Positions 2,760 through 48,042 of a stretch of DNA of 64,000 nt are shown one piece after another (positions within the stretch are counted from its first letter, which is position 1; every line of letters begins with the position of its first letter). The notes under the pieces are model-generated. The model was given only the letters and a program-made list of their open reading frames with translations, did no database searches and was not told where the DNA came from. The translations under genes were made by a program, and so were the position numbers. The DNA comes from Halobacteriovorax sp. GTDB lineage: Bacteria; Bdellovibrionota; Bacteriovoracia; Bacteriovoracales; Bacteriovoracaceae. The DNA is taken from assembly GCA_002716825.1 (NCBI GenBank), contig PBCC01000045.1, forward strand, positions 1-64,000, read 5' to 3'.

Positions 2760-3062
2760 GCCGCCATACAGGCATCCAGTCACACTCTTTATTTCATCAA
2801 CCATATTACTTCGCGTGGACTTGTTACTGGATCAAAGACAGTTGTTGCTGGCAATGGAGAAATTAGTGGTACAATTTCAAATGGAGGAAGGACTCAATGG
2901 GCATCGACTCCTTCGCGAAGGTCTTACCTTCATTCTCCATCTTCAATTGGAGGAGGTGGAAATGTTTCAGGGGTGGGTTCCATTTCAGGTGGGGGAGAAC
3001 TTAGAACATCGATAAGTAACGGACATTGGTCAAACGGAGTATTTACTCCTTATGCGAACTAG
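2760..3062 (+). pseudogene. in-frame continuation of the surface protein beyond the TGA at 2757
   Basis: Reading on in the same frame after the TGA gives 100 sense codons before TAG 3060-3062. The product is Gly/Ser/Asn-rich (for example VVAGNGEISGTISNGG, then SSIGGGGNVSGVGSISGGG), matching the style of the upstream beta-helix region. It ends 8 nt before the next gene's ATG, as an ordinary operon gene would. No start codon with a ribosome-binding site was seen here, so it is probably the C-terminus of the surface protein. It is now separated by a nonsense codon, reached by stop readthrough, or the product of a base error. The open frame at 2710-3015 in another register is a shadow. Confidence 0.6.
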
Positions 3063-3070
3063 AGGCTTTT

Positions 3071-3295
3071 ATGAGATTTAAAAAAATTGTCACCTTGCTG
3101 TTTTTTTTGTCATTTTCATTGAGCCCACTGGCTCAGGATAAGACAGCGGAGGAAGAATATTTAGAGTCTATGAAAACGCGAGAAAAAATGATTTTAAAAG
3201 CCAAGAAAGCAAAGGTAGAGCTTGAACTAAAAATTAGAAAATATAAAATCGAGAAAGAAAAAGGGTTAGAGTTACAAGAAGATTGGGAGAAATAA
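3071..3295 (+). CDS. small exported coiled-coil protein
   Basis: 74 residues starting at ATG 3071, with AGAGG at 3061-3065 as ribosome-binding site. The in-frame upstream TTG at 3026 lies inside the preceding gene and is unlikely. A signal peptide covers the first ~21 residues (MRFKK, a Leu/Phe-rich core, then SPLAQ). The mature part is about 50 residues of Lys/Glu-rich heptad-like helix, probably a coiled coil. Only 3 nt separate its TAA from the next ATG, so it is co-transcribed with the two exported paralogues downstream. No family is recognised; a small periplasmic partner of the surface proteins is only a guess. Confidence 0.7.
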   Translation: MRFKKIVTLLFFLSFSLSPLAQDKTAEEEYLESMKTREKMILKAKKAKVELELKIRKYKIEKEKGLELQEDWEK

Positions 3296-3298
3296 ATA

Positions 3299-4459
3299 AT
3301 GAATAGGTCAACTTTGTTACTATTTCTCTCTCTTTTATTTTCATGCCAGAGGGCTTTGGCTTTTGAAAAATATTTTCAAGGAGCCTATCTCAATATTCTA
3401 AGCGAGAAAATCCACACACTTTCGGTGAAAATGGGACCTAATACATTATTTAAAGGTGATCAAATAATTAAAAAACTGTGTCCTGTACCGAAGAAGGAGT
3501 GCGACATCAAGTTAGATGAATATTATTTCCTTACTGAACTTAAGGATAAAAGTTGTTATTCAAAAAAGAAAGATGAGACATGTATTATCTCAGGTTATAT
3601 AGTCGCGCAGCTTTTAAAGGAGAGATTACTCAAGAAAATGCCAATCGAAGGCTACAAAACGGATACACGATCGTTAAGTAGCGTCGGTTACAAATGGGGG
3701 AGGCTCTATAACAGAGAGGGGGATTTTAATACATTAACAGGCTCGAAGAGAGCAGGTAGCTATTACTCCCCCGGTTTTCCTTTGATATTTGGGCAAACTA
3801 GTATAGTTGAAGGCAAGTACAAGAGAGATGAGTGGGGAAATATCGAAAAGCCAAGAGGTCTGAAAATTATCAACCCCTTTGAGAATGATTCTTTGGAAAT
3901 GTGGTATCAGTCGGAATGGGTTTACGATAATATTTATCCAGTTGATAAAGGAGGGTTTACACTAAAGAAAGAGTTTGACTGCTCCAAGATAAAAATTAAT
4001 ACAAAAGATTATAAATACTTTGATTTCAAGGATGATTCAACTAATTTCGACATCACAAAAATCAATACAATTTGCCACGAACTGACTTATAAGATCTTTA
4101 AGTCTGAAAATGGTGTGCTATACACATACATAAAATCTAACTTTTACGACTCTGAATTTGAACATTCTCCTGAATATATTACAGAAGAAACTAGAGACAC
4201 AAATATCGGCATTCCTGCAGCTGAGTATCAAAAACTTCCTAGCGTTGTGGCAGCTTTTGAAGAGAGGGAGTTGTTTCCAGACCCTCAAAATCCTGAGAAG
4301 TATATTAACTATGTCCTTTTTCAAGAAATAGAAAACTCTGATAACGAAGAACAAAAGTGGAACAAATCGAGAGGGTTTCGTTTTTTAAGACATTTCCCAC
4401 TTAAAGATGCTGATCAGGGAAAATTAAGAAAGATAAAGCCTGTACTTGAATTTCACTAA
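3299..4459 (+). CDS. exported protein of unknown function, first of a tandem paralogous pair
   Basis: 386 residues with an N-terminal signal sequence; cleavage is likely after RALA, before FEKYF. LFSC at residues 12-15 could pass for a lipobox, but the paralogue conserves the later FEKYF boundary, which favours signal peptidase I. The first ~150 residues share long near-identical stretches with the next gene (HTLF-GDQIIKK, DEYY-LTEL, CIISGYIVAQL, MPIEGY, GY-WGRLYN) and carry four or more conserved Cys, suggesting disulfides in the periplasm or outside the cell. No catalytic motif is seen. It is probably in one operon with the coiled-coil protein and its paralogue. Confidence 0.75.
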   Translation: MNRSTLLLFLSLLFSCQRALAFEKYFQGAYLNILSEKIHTLSVKMGPNTLFKGDQIIKKLCPVPKKECDIKLDEYYFLTELKDKSCYSKKKDETCIISGYIVAQLLKERLLKKMPIEGYKTDTRSLSSVGYKWGRLYNREGDFNTLTGSKRAGSYYSPGFPLIFGQTSIVEGKYKRDEWGNIEKPRGLKIINPFENDSLEMWYQSEWVYDNIYPVDKGGFTLKKEFDCSKIKINTKDYKYFDFKDDSTNFDITKINTICHELTYKIFKSENGVLYTYIKSNFYDSEFEHSPEYITEETRDTNIGIPAAEYQKLPSVVAAFEERELFPDPQNPEKYINYVLFQEIENSDNEEQKWNKSRGFRFLRHFPLKDADQGKLRKIKPVLEFH

Positions 4460-40798: not shown

Positions 40799-40882
40799 AT
40801 GTCGAATGTCTTTCAAGATGCAATTAAAACCTTCTTGTAGCCCATCGGGGACCTGCTTGAAGATGAAAGCATCTCGGAAGTC
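40799..40882 (+). pseudogene. N-terminal 28 codons of the CpaF-type ATPase, interrupted by TAG 40838
   Basis: From ATG 40799, two bases after the cupredoxin stop, the frame reads MSNVFQDAIKTFL-stop-PIGDLLEDESISEVM and then runs on unbroken into the ATPase. The pieces on both sides match the usual CpaF start (F---I--FL-PI--LLEDES-SEVMINGPSEI-VE). The frame is not shifted; only the TAG (40838-40840) interrupts it. Interpretations: nonsense mutation, stop readthrough, or base-call error. Confidence 0.75.
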
Positions 40883-41929
40883 ATGATTAATGGACCGTCT
40901 GAAATTTTTGTCGAACAAAAAGGTCTGGTTCATAAAGTTCCCAATGCATTTCATAACGAAGAAGCTCTAACGGCCGCCATGCGCGCCGTCGCTCAATCTG
41001 TAGGTCGTGTGATCGATGCCGATAATCCAAGACTTGATGCCAGACTTCCAGATGGCTCACGTATTGCTGTAGTTATTCCACCAATGGCGAAAAATGGTAC
41101 CACAGTAGCGATTCGTAAATTTAGTAAGGAAAAGCTTGGACTCAAAGATTTAATTGAATATGGCTCACTATCGCAAACGGCCGCAAGATTTTTAGATTGC
41201 TGTATGTATATCGGTAAGAATACTTTGGTGTCCGGCGGTACTGGTTCAGGTAAAACCACAATGCTTAATGTGCTTGGTTCTAGAATGCCAAAAACTCAGC
41301 GACTGCTTATCATTGAAGACTCTGCTGAACTTCAAATTAAGGCCGAACACGTGGTTCAGTTTGAAACAAGAAAAGGCAATCCTAAGATGGGCGTCACCGA
41401 GGTTACCATTCGTGACCTTGTTGAATCGGCCCTTCGACTTAGACCTGATCGTATTATTGTAGGGGAAGTTCGCGGTATGGAAGCATTGGATCTTCTTAAT
41501 GCCATGGGCACAGGTCACGAAGGATCTATGGGGACAGTTCACGCCAATACTCCAATAGATGCTTGTACCAGACTAGAGACCCTATGCCTTATGGGTGAGA
41601 CTAGAATTCCACCAGATGCGATTAGAAAAATGGTGGGCTCAGCCTTGCAGCTGATTGTTCAATGTAATCGCTATCACGACGGTGGAAGAAGAACATCTCA
41701 TATTTCAGAAGTTCTTGGAGTTGATGCCAACGGTAATTATATTGTGAAAGATATTTTTCGCTGGGTACAAACTGGGAAAGATCCAGATACTGGCAAGTTT
41801 ATAGGTGAGATGGTTCCGTGTAATTACGTTCCAACATTCTTTGAAGAATTCGTTGCCAATAAGCTTCCCTTTCCAAAGAGCAACTTTGCTTCGCCCGATT
41901 GGTATAAGAAGCTTAAGCTTGCGGCCTAA
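40883..41929 (+). CDS. cpaF: CpaF/TadA-type secretion ATPase (VirB11-like), start uncertain because of an upstream in-frame TAG
   Basis: 348 residues from ATG 40883, itself an internal Met of the full-length frame (see separate entry). Conserved parts: INGPSEIFVE, DARLPDGSRIAVVIPP, Walker A SGGTGSGKTTM, Asp box LIIEDSAELQI, ALRLRPDRIIVGEVRG (Walker B region) and GHEGSMGTVHAN (His box). The protein is a hexameric ATPase of Tad/Flp pilus or type II/IV secretion. No other tad genes are adjacent. If only this shorter product is made, it lacks the first helix of the N-terminal domain. GGAA lies too close to this ATG to be a good ribosome-binding site. Confidence 0.85.
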   Translation: MINGPSEIFVEQKGLVHKVPNAFHNEEALTAAMRAVAQSVGRVIDADNPRLDARLPDGSRIAVVIPPMAKNGTTVAIRKFSKEKLGLKDLIEYGSLSQTAARFLDCCMYIGKNTLVSGGTGSGKTTMLNVLGSRMPKTQRLLIIEDSAELQIKAEHVVQFETRKGNPKMGVTEVTIRDLVESALRLRPDRIIVGEVRGMEALDLLNAMGTGHEGSMGTVHANTPIDACTRLETLCLMGETRIPPDAIRKMVGSALQLIVQCNRYHDGGRRTSHISEVLGVDANGNYIVKDIFRWVQTGKDPDTGKFIGEMVPCNYVPTFFEEFVANKLPFPKSNFASPDWYKKLKLAA

Positions 41930-45210: not shown

Positions 45211-45606
45211 TTGAGCCTTTGGAGCAGCTTTAAAAGTTTCTTCTCTCACGCGCCTTCATACTCAACCTTTTTAGAGCTTGGGTATAAGGCGCGAACTTAT
45301 AATGGCGATTTCATTTTTTCTCGCTCTTACGACTATTGCTTCGTCAACATTCATCAAGGTGTTGAACCCCATAATAAAAAATTTGGCCACCTCATAGACT
45401 TCGAAATTGAAGATGCATGCATCATTATTTCCTTTAAAGAAGATACGATGCTTAAGCGAAAGCAGATTGACCAAATTAGAGAACTTTTTGATTTTGTCTA
45501 CGAGCGCGAAATATTTTTGTTCTGTATGAACAAGAATATGGACTTTAACGATGAGTCAGTATCAAAGATAGCGAGAGATCTTCACAGCTTACTAATGTCT
45601 TCCTGA
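45211..45606 (+). CDS. small cytoplasmic protein of unknown function
   Basis: 131 residues; TTG 45211 is the only plausible near start, with no clear ribosome-binding site, and lies 3 nt after the previous stop. Mixed alpha/beta with aromatic-rich strands (YGDF--SRSYDYCFVNIHQG) and a helical C-terminus. No family or signal peptide. Its 3' end overlaps the end of the convergent Hpt frame by 25 nt. It could be one of the signalling genes or belong with the preceding protein. Confidence 0.6.
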   Translation: MSLWSSFKSFFSHAPSYSTFLELGYKARTYNGDFIFSRSYDYCFVNIHQGVEPHNKKFGHLIDFEIEDACIIISFKEDTMLKRKQIDQIRELFDFVYEREIFLFCMNKNMDFNDESVSKIARDLHSLLMSS

Positions 45607-45875
45607 TAATTTTTAAGGAGAGACTCGTACTCGTTCAGTAAACTATTTATATTATCCATAATAACACTTTCTTCTAACTTGGCGCCAATTGCTCCAAGCT
45701 CTGGTAAGCCGTAGCTTCCAGCGTTGCCAGCGAGTTTGTGACCAATTTTCTTAATGCCCTCAAGATCATTTGAAGAAACCAGTGAACGCAGCTCTAGAAG
45801 CTCCTTTGAGCGGTTCTCAAGATAGCCTGGAATGAGCGGGAGAAGTTCTTCAGGGATGTTTTTTAGAGATGAGAT
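45582..45875 (-). CDS. Hpt (histidine phosphotransfer) domain protein with ATC at the start position
   Basis: About 97 residues, a single Hpt domain. IGHKLAGNAGSYGL (H46) matches the Hpt consensus H-L-KG----G, surrounded by the expected four-helix pattern (EELLPLIPGYLENRSKELLEL, then GAIGAKLEESV and LLNEYESLL). The frame is open from the TAA at 45921-45923 to TGA 45582-45584, but contains no ATG, GTG or TTG upstream of the His. A GGAG lies at 45883-45886 on the minus strand, and exactly 7 nt later comes ATC (45875-45873), which looks like a former ATG. It is divergent from the response regulator at 45995, an obvious partner. Either it starts at a rare codon or the gene is silenced. Confidence 0.7.
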   Translation of the reverse strand: MSSLKNIPEELLPLIPGYLENRSKELLELRSLVSSNDLEGIKKIGHKLAGNAGSYGLPELGAIGAKLEESVIMDNINSLLNEYESLLKNYQEDISKL

Positions 45876-45994
45876 AGGAGTGCTCCGCGTAAAAATTAAA
45901 ATGAGAATACTTAATACTTGTTATTGCTCCATTTTCTGTCAACGATTACAATTTAATTTATAATTGTTTGTATATTTGTTCCTAGGAGATCGGC

Positions 45995-46693
45995 TTGTCT
46001 AGAGCGACCATTCTGTTAATTGATGATGATCCTGATCTTCAAACGTTGCTTGAAACAGTCTTAACTCCGACTTATGCACTCTTTCATGTTGATAATTTGA
46101 AGAACGCTAGAGACTTTATCAACCGAAGTGTACCAGACCTAATTTTATTAGATGACGAACTTCCCGATGGTCGCGGCATTGAAATGTTTAATAATTTGAA
46201 AAATGTTGAAGGTGCCAGACAGACGCCAATTCTCATGCTGACAAAAAAAGGTGCGGTTGAAAATAAAGTGGCTGCCTTTGAGTTGGGTGCGGAAGATTAT
46301 ATTACAAAACCATTTGAACCACTTGAAGTGATGGCAAGAGTTCAACTGCGATTGAAGCATAAAAAAACAGACTCATCGAACTCTGGTTCATCCAGGTTTG
46401 ATGATCTTGAACTTGATGTTCCAATGAGTAAGGCTTATCTGCATTCTGGTGAGTCTAAAAATGAAATAGACATGACCCCAATTGAGTTTAAAATTCTTTA
46501 TTTGCTAGCTTCAAAAAAAGGCGAAGTACTTTCAAGAAGAGATATTCTTAAGGAAGTTTGGGGTGAGTCTCAACATGTGATTGAAAGAACAGTCGACCAA
46601 CATGTAAGTAAAATCAGAAAAAAACTTCAAGAGAGCACTTATACAGTTAGATCGGCGCACGGTCGCGGCTATGCTTTTGTGAAAAATATCTAA
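45995..46693 (+). CDS. OmpR-family two-component response regulator
   Basis: 232 residues from TTG 45995, with AGGAG six bases upstream. Receiver domain: acidic pocket D10-D12, phospho-acceptor D53 (ILLDDELPDG), T and K105 (YITKPFEP). C-terminal winged-helix output (about 130-230) with DMTPIEFKILYLLASKKGEVLSRRDIL, VWG, RTVDQHVSKIRKKL and GRGYAFV. Binds DNA after phosphorylation. The Hpt protein divergently encoded next to it is a likely phosphodonor. Its TAA overlaps the next ATG (TAATG). Confidence 0.93.
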   Translation: MSRATILLIDDDPDLQTLLETVLTPTYALFHVDNLKNARDFINRSVPDLILLDDELPDGRGIEMFNNLKNVEGARQTPILMLTKKGAVENKVAAFELGAEDYITKPFEPLEVMARVQLRLKHKKTDSSNSGSSRFDDLELDVPMSKAYLHSGESKNEIDMTPIEFKILYLLASKKGEVLSRRDILKEVWGESQHVIERTVDQHVSKIRKKLQESTYTVRSAHGRGYAFVKNI

Positions 46694-48042
46694 TGTCTAG
46701 AAAAGCACTATTTTTAACAGATAATAACGTTCTTGGAGATGTCTTCGCAGCTAATTTAAAAGCTTATGTTGACCTCCATGTTGAAACGGTCGATTCACTT
46801 GAGAACTTTCAGGCAAATGCGTCGGGGCCGTGGGACCTGTTCATATCGATTTCTATGATTACGGAACAAGATGCTGCTAAAGAGGCTTACGGGATTGCTC
46901 AAGGAAGCAATAAAGATACTCCTTTTATTGTTGTAGGCCAAAAAAGTGAGCTGAGTAACGCTAGTGAGGTTGTCACCGTTGCCGGCAATTTAGATATTAA
47001 GTCTTTGGTTAAGACTGTGGCCGGTATTTTTAAAATTAGCGCTAAGGATATGATGGGTATTGAGGTACCAGAGCATTTCCCAATGCCAATAAAGTTATTC
47101 CAATACCTAGATAGTGCTCCATGCGATGTTTTCGTCCAAACGAATAAGAACCCCAAGGTGCCAGAGTTTGCCAAAGTCTGGGAGAAAGGCGTTATCAGAC
47201 GCCATGTCATTAAAGAATATATTGATCGTGGAATTGAATTTCTCTTCGTTCCGGCCGCTGATCGTTTAAAGGTCATCAATATCGCCTCCACTCAGGTCGT
47301 AGAGGCCCTTGATAATCCAGAGCTCTCTAAAGAAGAAAAGCTTGATCTACTCGAGCAAGGCTTTGAAGTTGTAGCGGCAAGATTAACGGATAATCCAAAG
47401 GTATCGGCCGAAGTTGTAACCATTTCAAAAAAATGTATTGAACAGGTAACTGAAGTCATTAAAGAGTTCCCAAAACTAAAGTCACTGCTGGCAGGCCTAG
47501 CAGAAAATAAATCCCGCTATCTCTACTTCCACTCGATTCTAGCAACCTATATTTGTAATCACGTTGTGAAGTATATTTCTTGGGGTGGTGAAGGTCACAG
47601 CGAGAAGATTTCTTTTGTTTTATATTTTCACGATATCTTTCTTGTTCCTATTTATAACAAGTACCCTCAGTTTAAATTTGAAGAAGAATTGGTTTTTAAT
47701 AACCTACTGACTGATAAAGAAAAAGAAGTCGTTGTCGGTCATGCTCGTATGGCCGGAGAACTGGTAAAAACCTTCCCAAGAGTTCCTATGGGAGCTGATG
47801 CTATTGTGACTCAGCATCACGGTGTTACGTCAGGTAGTGGGTTTACGCTAGATTATCGCGATGATGTCTCTCCACTGGCGAAAGTGATTATCGTCGCAGA
47901 AGCTTTTGTAGACGAGATTATTACGGTGAAAGACGATGGTGGCACACCTGATCGTACTGCGATACTGGCAAGTCTTCGCGCTAAATTTCCAAGACATACC
48001 TATATCAAGATAATCGATAGCTTAGAAAACCTTCCAATTTAA
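46693..48042 (+). CDS. HD-GYP-like phosphodiesterase with degenerate GYP motif
   Basis: 449 residues, co-transcribed with the response regulator. Residues 1-105 look receiver-like but without a clear phospho-Asp. The C-terminal half (about 240-449) resembles HD-GYP: F-H at YFHSILATYICNH, HD at YFHDIFLV, GHARMAGELV (HP-type box without Pro) and QHHGVTSGSGF in place of HHE--DG-GYP. Metal ligands seem largely preserved, but the GYP is lost, so c-di-GMP or related nucleotide hydrolysis is uncertain and a sensor role is possible. Stop overlaps the convergent paralogue's stop. Confidence 0.8.
   Translation: MSRKALFLTDNNVLGDVFAANLKAYVDLHVETVDSLENFQANASGPWDLFISISMITEQDAAKEAYGIAQGSNKDTPFIVVGQKSELSNASEVVTVAGNLDIKSLVKTVAGIFKISAKDMMGIEVPEHFPMPIKLFQYLDSAPCDVFVQTNKNPKVPEFAKVWEKGVIRRHVIKEYIDRGIEFLFVPAADRLKVINIASTQVVEALDNPELSKEEKLDLLEQGFEVVAARLTDNPKVSAEVVTISKKCIEQVTEVIKEFPKLKSLLAGLAENKSRYLYFHSILATYICNHVVKYISWGGEGHSEKISFVLYFHDIFLVPIYNKYPQFKFEEELVFNNLLTDKEKEVVVGHARMAGELVKTFPRVPMGADAIVTQHHGVTSGSGFTLDYRDDVSPLAKVIIVAEAFVDEIITVKDDGGTPDRTAILASLRAKFPRHTYIKIIDSLENLPI

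Follow-up and report, generated by a model that had tools for sequence, protein, structure and literature searches.

The window, that is the whole 64,000-nucleotide stretch of DNA analysed, carries on its minus strand a small gene for a histidine phosphotransfer (Hpt) protein, with ATC at the place where orthologous genes have a canonical start codon. The features at the locus are as follows:

45211-45606, plus strand: convergent gene of 131 residues, function unassigned, overlapping the 3' end of the Hpt gene by 25 bp, as in the sister genome G001
45582-45875, minus strand: Hpt coding sequence, 97 residues from the ATC, stop included, assigned by PF01627 and alignment
45873-45875, minus strand: ATC at the place of the orthologous ATG, aligned with that of G001
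45883-45886, minus strand: Shine-Dalgarno-like GGAG, 7 nt from the ATC
45921-45923, minus strand: in-frame TAA closing the Hpt frame upstream
45995-46693, plus strand: divergent OmpR-type response regulator (receiver and Trans_reg_C domains, Pfam), with a TTG start
46693-48042, plus strand: HD_5-like protein (weak match), whose place beside Hpt and the regulator is kept in several genera

The Hpt gene and its orthologues

The stop-to-stop frame on the minus strand (45582-45920) is open over 112 codons. It encodes a complete Hpt domain with its histidine H46, as the first-pass annotation had it: the match to PF01627 reaches 30 bits against a curated cut-off (gathering score) of 24.6 (E=6.1e-7), and the active-site histidine, residue 46 counted from the ATC, is invariant among seven aligned orthologues. 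The first ATG, GTG or TTG in the frame is codon 88, beyond this histidine, so the domain has no canonical start in frame upstream of it. Ordinary gene callers would miss such a frame, as had been foreseen, and a caller restricted to these three codons would lose a complete Hpt gene of a predatory-type bacterium. Judged by domain, alignment and gene order, this is a single-domain Hpt phosphorelay gene found family-wide, of which the window copy is a true syntenic orthologue; a phosphotransfer role is predicted for the protein from the domain match and the histidine.

Matches to Hpt were found in 55 of the 97 genomes searched. The sole other genome of the genus compared, G001 (the CG12_big_fil Bdellovibrionales draft, contig PCUW01000010), shares the gene order around Hpt with the window's genome on both sides over tens of kilobases. 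The two Hpt proteins are 55% identical and begin with MSFQNLP in G001 and ISSLKNIP in the window, and the ATG of G001 aligns exactly on the ATC, which is thus where the start belongs, as the first reading of the sequence had assumed. The comparison of orthologues that this reading had called for gives ATG or GTG in all 29 genes read, namely G001 and 28 others from the family and phylum, whose starts lie close to that of G001 in position. None of the 29 starts with ATC, ATT or ATA, and none has an alternative start further upstream; the ATC is private to the window's genome.

The response regulator does lie opposite Hpt as described, with 119 bp between its gene and the Hpt start, and the first canonical start of its orthologue in G001 is likewise TTG. 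Hpt and an OmpR-type regulator also diverge in the relatives L003, L004, L006, L012 and L013, with an HD-like gene after the regulator. The recurrence of this arrangement in several genera suggests that the neighbourhood is old. The regulator can be regarded as a conserved neighbour of Hpt and, as its phosphorelay partner, only as a candidate. In L187, which is on the same contig as L003 and from another genus, Hpt is followed by two receiver-domain genes with its own orientation (2803-4187, plus strand). No such genes stand beside Hpt in G001 or the window's genome, and the first of them, used as a query, found no close copy elsewhere in these two genomes.

The GGAG at 45886-45883 stands 7 nt before the ATC, as noted earlier. 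How much weight it can bear was estimated from 338 genes whose start is common to G001, with random ATCs within the window as background. A match of exactly 4 nt precedes 36% of real starts and 23% of random ATCs, and a match of at least 4 nt about 67% and 29%, respectively. The GGAG therefore lends a start weak support, by only about two to one, and chance matches are too common for it to serve as proof. The position of the Hpt start is accepted because the orthologous ATG aligns to the ATC and not because of the GGAG. Folding of the mRNA around the start shows nothing unusual that would hide or expose it (z=0.6). A promoter scan gave no more sites than shuffled sequences did, and the minus strand had none.

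Single-base lesions in the same draft genome

The comparison covered about 1.04 Mb of the window's genome (G000) and 1.17 Mb of G001 and gave 354 orthologous pairs with at least 35% identity. Among these pairs, once frames truncated at the end of a contig or of a fetched stretch are set aside, no interior gene lacks a canonical start at the shared N-terminus in G000 alone as clearly as Hpt does. A tblastn comparison over about 310 conserved genes found three in-frame stops and three frameshifts in G000. One of the stops is in the window, 5 kb from Hpt, in a gene for a TadA/CpaF-type secretion ATPase (40799-41929, plus strand), where codon 14 is TAG (40838-40840) and G001 has GCC. The two genes match before the TAG as well, and after it the identity is 96.7% across 362 codons. 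The other lesions lie outside the window, in genes whose names were given from sequence without a family search and are presumptive:

C1:82696-83097, GFA-like protein, single-base stop (TGA)
C7:15279-16016, ABC ATPase, single-base stop (TAG)
C8:11452-11971 and C8:20310-20887, peptidase-like and ORF6N-like proteins, frameshifts
C20:14906-16224, CinA-like protein, frameshift

Conversely, G001 had four flagged stops, mostly, as judged by eye, in poorly aligned N-terminal stretches. Readthrough as a general cause of the nonsense codons in G000 was rejected, as TAG (two cases) and TGA (one) both act as ordinary stops in this genome. Some of the six lesions may be real pseudogenes.

About 104,000 codons were aligned, and the three nonsense codons among them correspond, on our assumption that 4-5% of random substitutions create stops, to a rough estimate of 2e-4 substitutions per base. 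At that rate about 0.17 lost starts are expected in the surveyed genes and about one in the whole genome, and one was found; the estimate rests on the three nonsense codons, and none of the six lesions is itself a start-codon change. Because the lesion rate predicts about one lost start per genome, the ATC of Hpt needs no special cause. G000 thus has other unexplained single-base lesions in conserved genes, as an error-bearing draft would, and we infer that the ATC belongs with them. Before an ATC start private to one draft genome is taken for regulation, it should be weighed against how often single-base lesions occur in that genome.

The most probable reading, held with moderate confidence, is that the ATC stems from an error in the consensus or from a very recent mutation in an intact gene, with ATG changed to ATC at one base. 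Such a change in one draft genome would be neither conserved nor old, and its source would be either the assembly consensus or the organism itself. The ATC shows no apparent sign of selection: it is private, its Shine-Dalgarno sequence is ordinary, and comparable lesions occur in the same genome. The first-pass annotation offered two outcomes, a weak AUC start or loss of the gene's function through one base change; it was right about a Hpt gene at the ATC but overlooked a third, a possible error in the consensus of this draft (metagenome-type) genome, which we favour at least as much as either outcome. Should the base be genuine, initiator tRNA would still pair with the AUC that follows the GGAG, mismatched at the third position, and synthesis of the Hpt protein would presumably not cease but fall to a small fraction of the AUG level. 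As a recent AUC mutation probably leaves some translation, "off" and "weak" become a matter of degree. On the other side, a working gene would explain equally well that Hpt is conserved and the GGAG kept, and near-cognate starts do occur elsewhere in the lineage.

Near-cognate starts in the lineage

Initiation factor IF3 discriminates against initiation at AUC, and natural near-cognate starts are found in infC, in pcnB of Escherichia coli and in ccpN and cvfC1 of Staphylococcus aureus. As infC was not found in the window's own genome, which is 74% complete, it was read as a control in relatives. In many of them (L136-L165, for example L145, L149, L153 and L157) no canonical start precedes the IF3 domain, and the frame begins with ATT, ATC or ATA; in several of these relatives GGAGGT immediately precedes that codon.

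A second gene of this kind encodes a DEAD-box/R3H RNA helicase. Of 30 genomes, 11 have ATT (2), ATC (6) or ATA (3) at its conserved METT start, and one has GTC. In ten of the 11 no canonical start lies upstream in frame, and in three genomes a stop codon comes immediately before the ATC. The genomes with such a start are:

G000, C70:13346-15379 (L223)
G001, C14:6403-8487 (L222)
L226, L243, L245, L246, L248, L257, L261, L262 and L264

This pattern suggests a conserved near-cognate start comparable to that of infC, and a literature search found no report of it. Recurrent across many genera of the family, it is better supported than the ATC of Hpt, and the helicase could serve as a test of IF3-dependent control of the start codon beyond infC.

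A gene for an RlmI-like methyltransferase also has an N-terminus without a canonical start, both in G000 (L060, contig C15, 7841-9028, minus strand) and in G001 (C7:29550-30740, plus strand). In both, a CTG overlaps the TGA of the upstream frame and lies behind GGAG, which makes the CTG the likely start. In most of the relatives that were read, the start is ATG.

That the ATC of Hpt is real, fixed and used, with discrimination by IF3 keeping the protein low or tied to IF3 activity, is accordingly possible though rather doubtful. The conserved N-terminus without a canonical start in frame is what a near-cognate start would leave, frame and active site are intact without excess change, and the GGAG is well spaced. 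The infC and helicase genes, the latter including the copy in G000, show that the lineage has ATT, ATC and ATA starts. Natural AUU and AUA starts in S. aureus yield about 10% of the AUG level and, in the case of ccpN in rich medium, as much as 30% (PMC13009471). However, the ATC is not conserved even in the sister genome, and single-base lesions are frequent in G000. The Shine-Dalgarno sequence is also only 4 nt long, whereas the natural AUU and AUA starts of S. aureus carry extended ones (PMC13009471) and the infC genes of several relatives have GGAGGT. The stronger form of this idea, in which a lineage already using such starts for infC and the helicase has newly placed a phosphorelay protein under a weak, IF3-sensitive start, appears improbable. 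If true, the level of signal transfer in the Hpt phosphorelay would be set through the choice of start codon. A sequence error or a recent mutation is more likely than a designed weak start.

Decay, other starts and known systems

A long-standing pseudogene, switched off by the change of its start codon and drifting since, would be expected to have lost conserved residues or to be interrupted in its frame. The window copy shows neither and retains all 20 columns that are invariant in the seven-sequence alignment. At columns conserved in the outgroups it departs alone from none, against four for the intact copy of G001, and its FastTree branch is the shorter (0.26 against 0.73). The relaxed selection that had been considered as a sign of decay is thus not seen. 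Differences by codon position show that Hpt overall evolves faster than its neighbour genes, and this is not peculiar to the window copy. Any loss must be recent or apparent, and long-term decay is rejected by these comparisons; the missing canonical start and the further disrupted genes in G000 speak for this reading, which is nonetheless very unlikely. It is just as far-fetched that translation begins elsewhere, at the in-frame ATT or ACG codons upstream (three ATT and one ACG, at 45908, 45902, 45896 and 45890) or, by readthrough of the TAA at 45923-45921, at the ATG at 45932-45930 of an ATG GAG CAA TAA in the same frame, since none of these codons has, by eye, a suitably spaced Shine-Dalgarno sequence and G001 has nothing that corresponds to this stretch, its frame being closed by an in-frame TAG only three codons upstream of the ATG at the ATC position.

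Compared with other single-domain Hpt proteins (PF01627), the window's protein has the domain above the curated cut-off and the active-site histidine in GHKLAGNAGSYGL, and its gene differs in starting with ATC instead of ATG or GTG and in nothing else. With infC, E. coli pcnB and S. aureus ccpN, cvfC1 and citZ it has in common that an AUH codon replaces AUG behind a Shine-Dalgarno sequence. The starts of ccpN and cvfC1 are conserved across species and have extended Shine-Dalgarno sequences like that of infC (PMC13009471), whereas the ATC of Hpt is found in one genome, with ATG or GTG in 29 of 29 orthologues, behind the four nucleotides GGAG. The nearest parallel is citZ, where the AUA start is confined to one S. 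aureus lineage.
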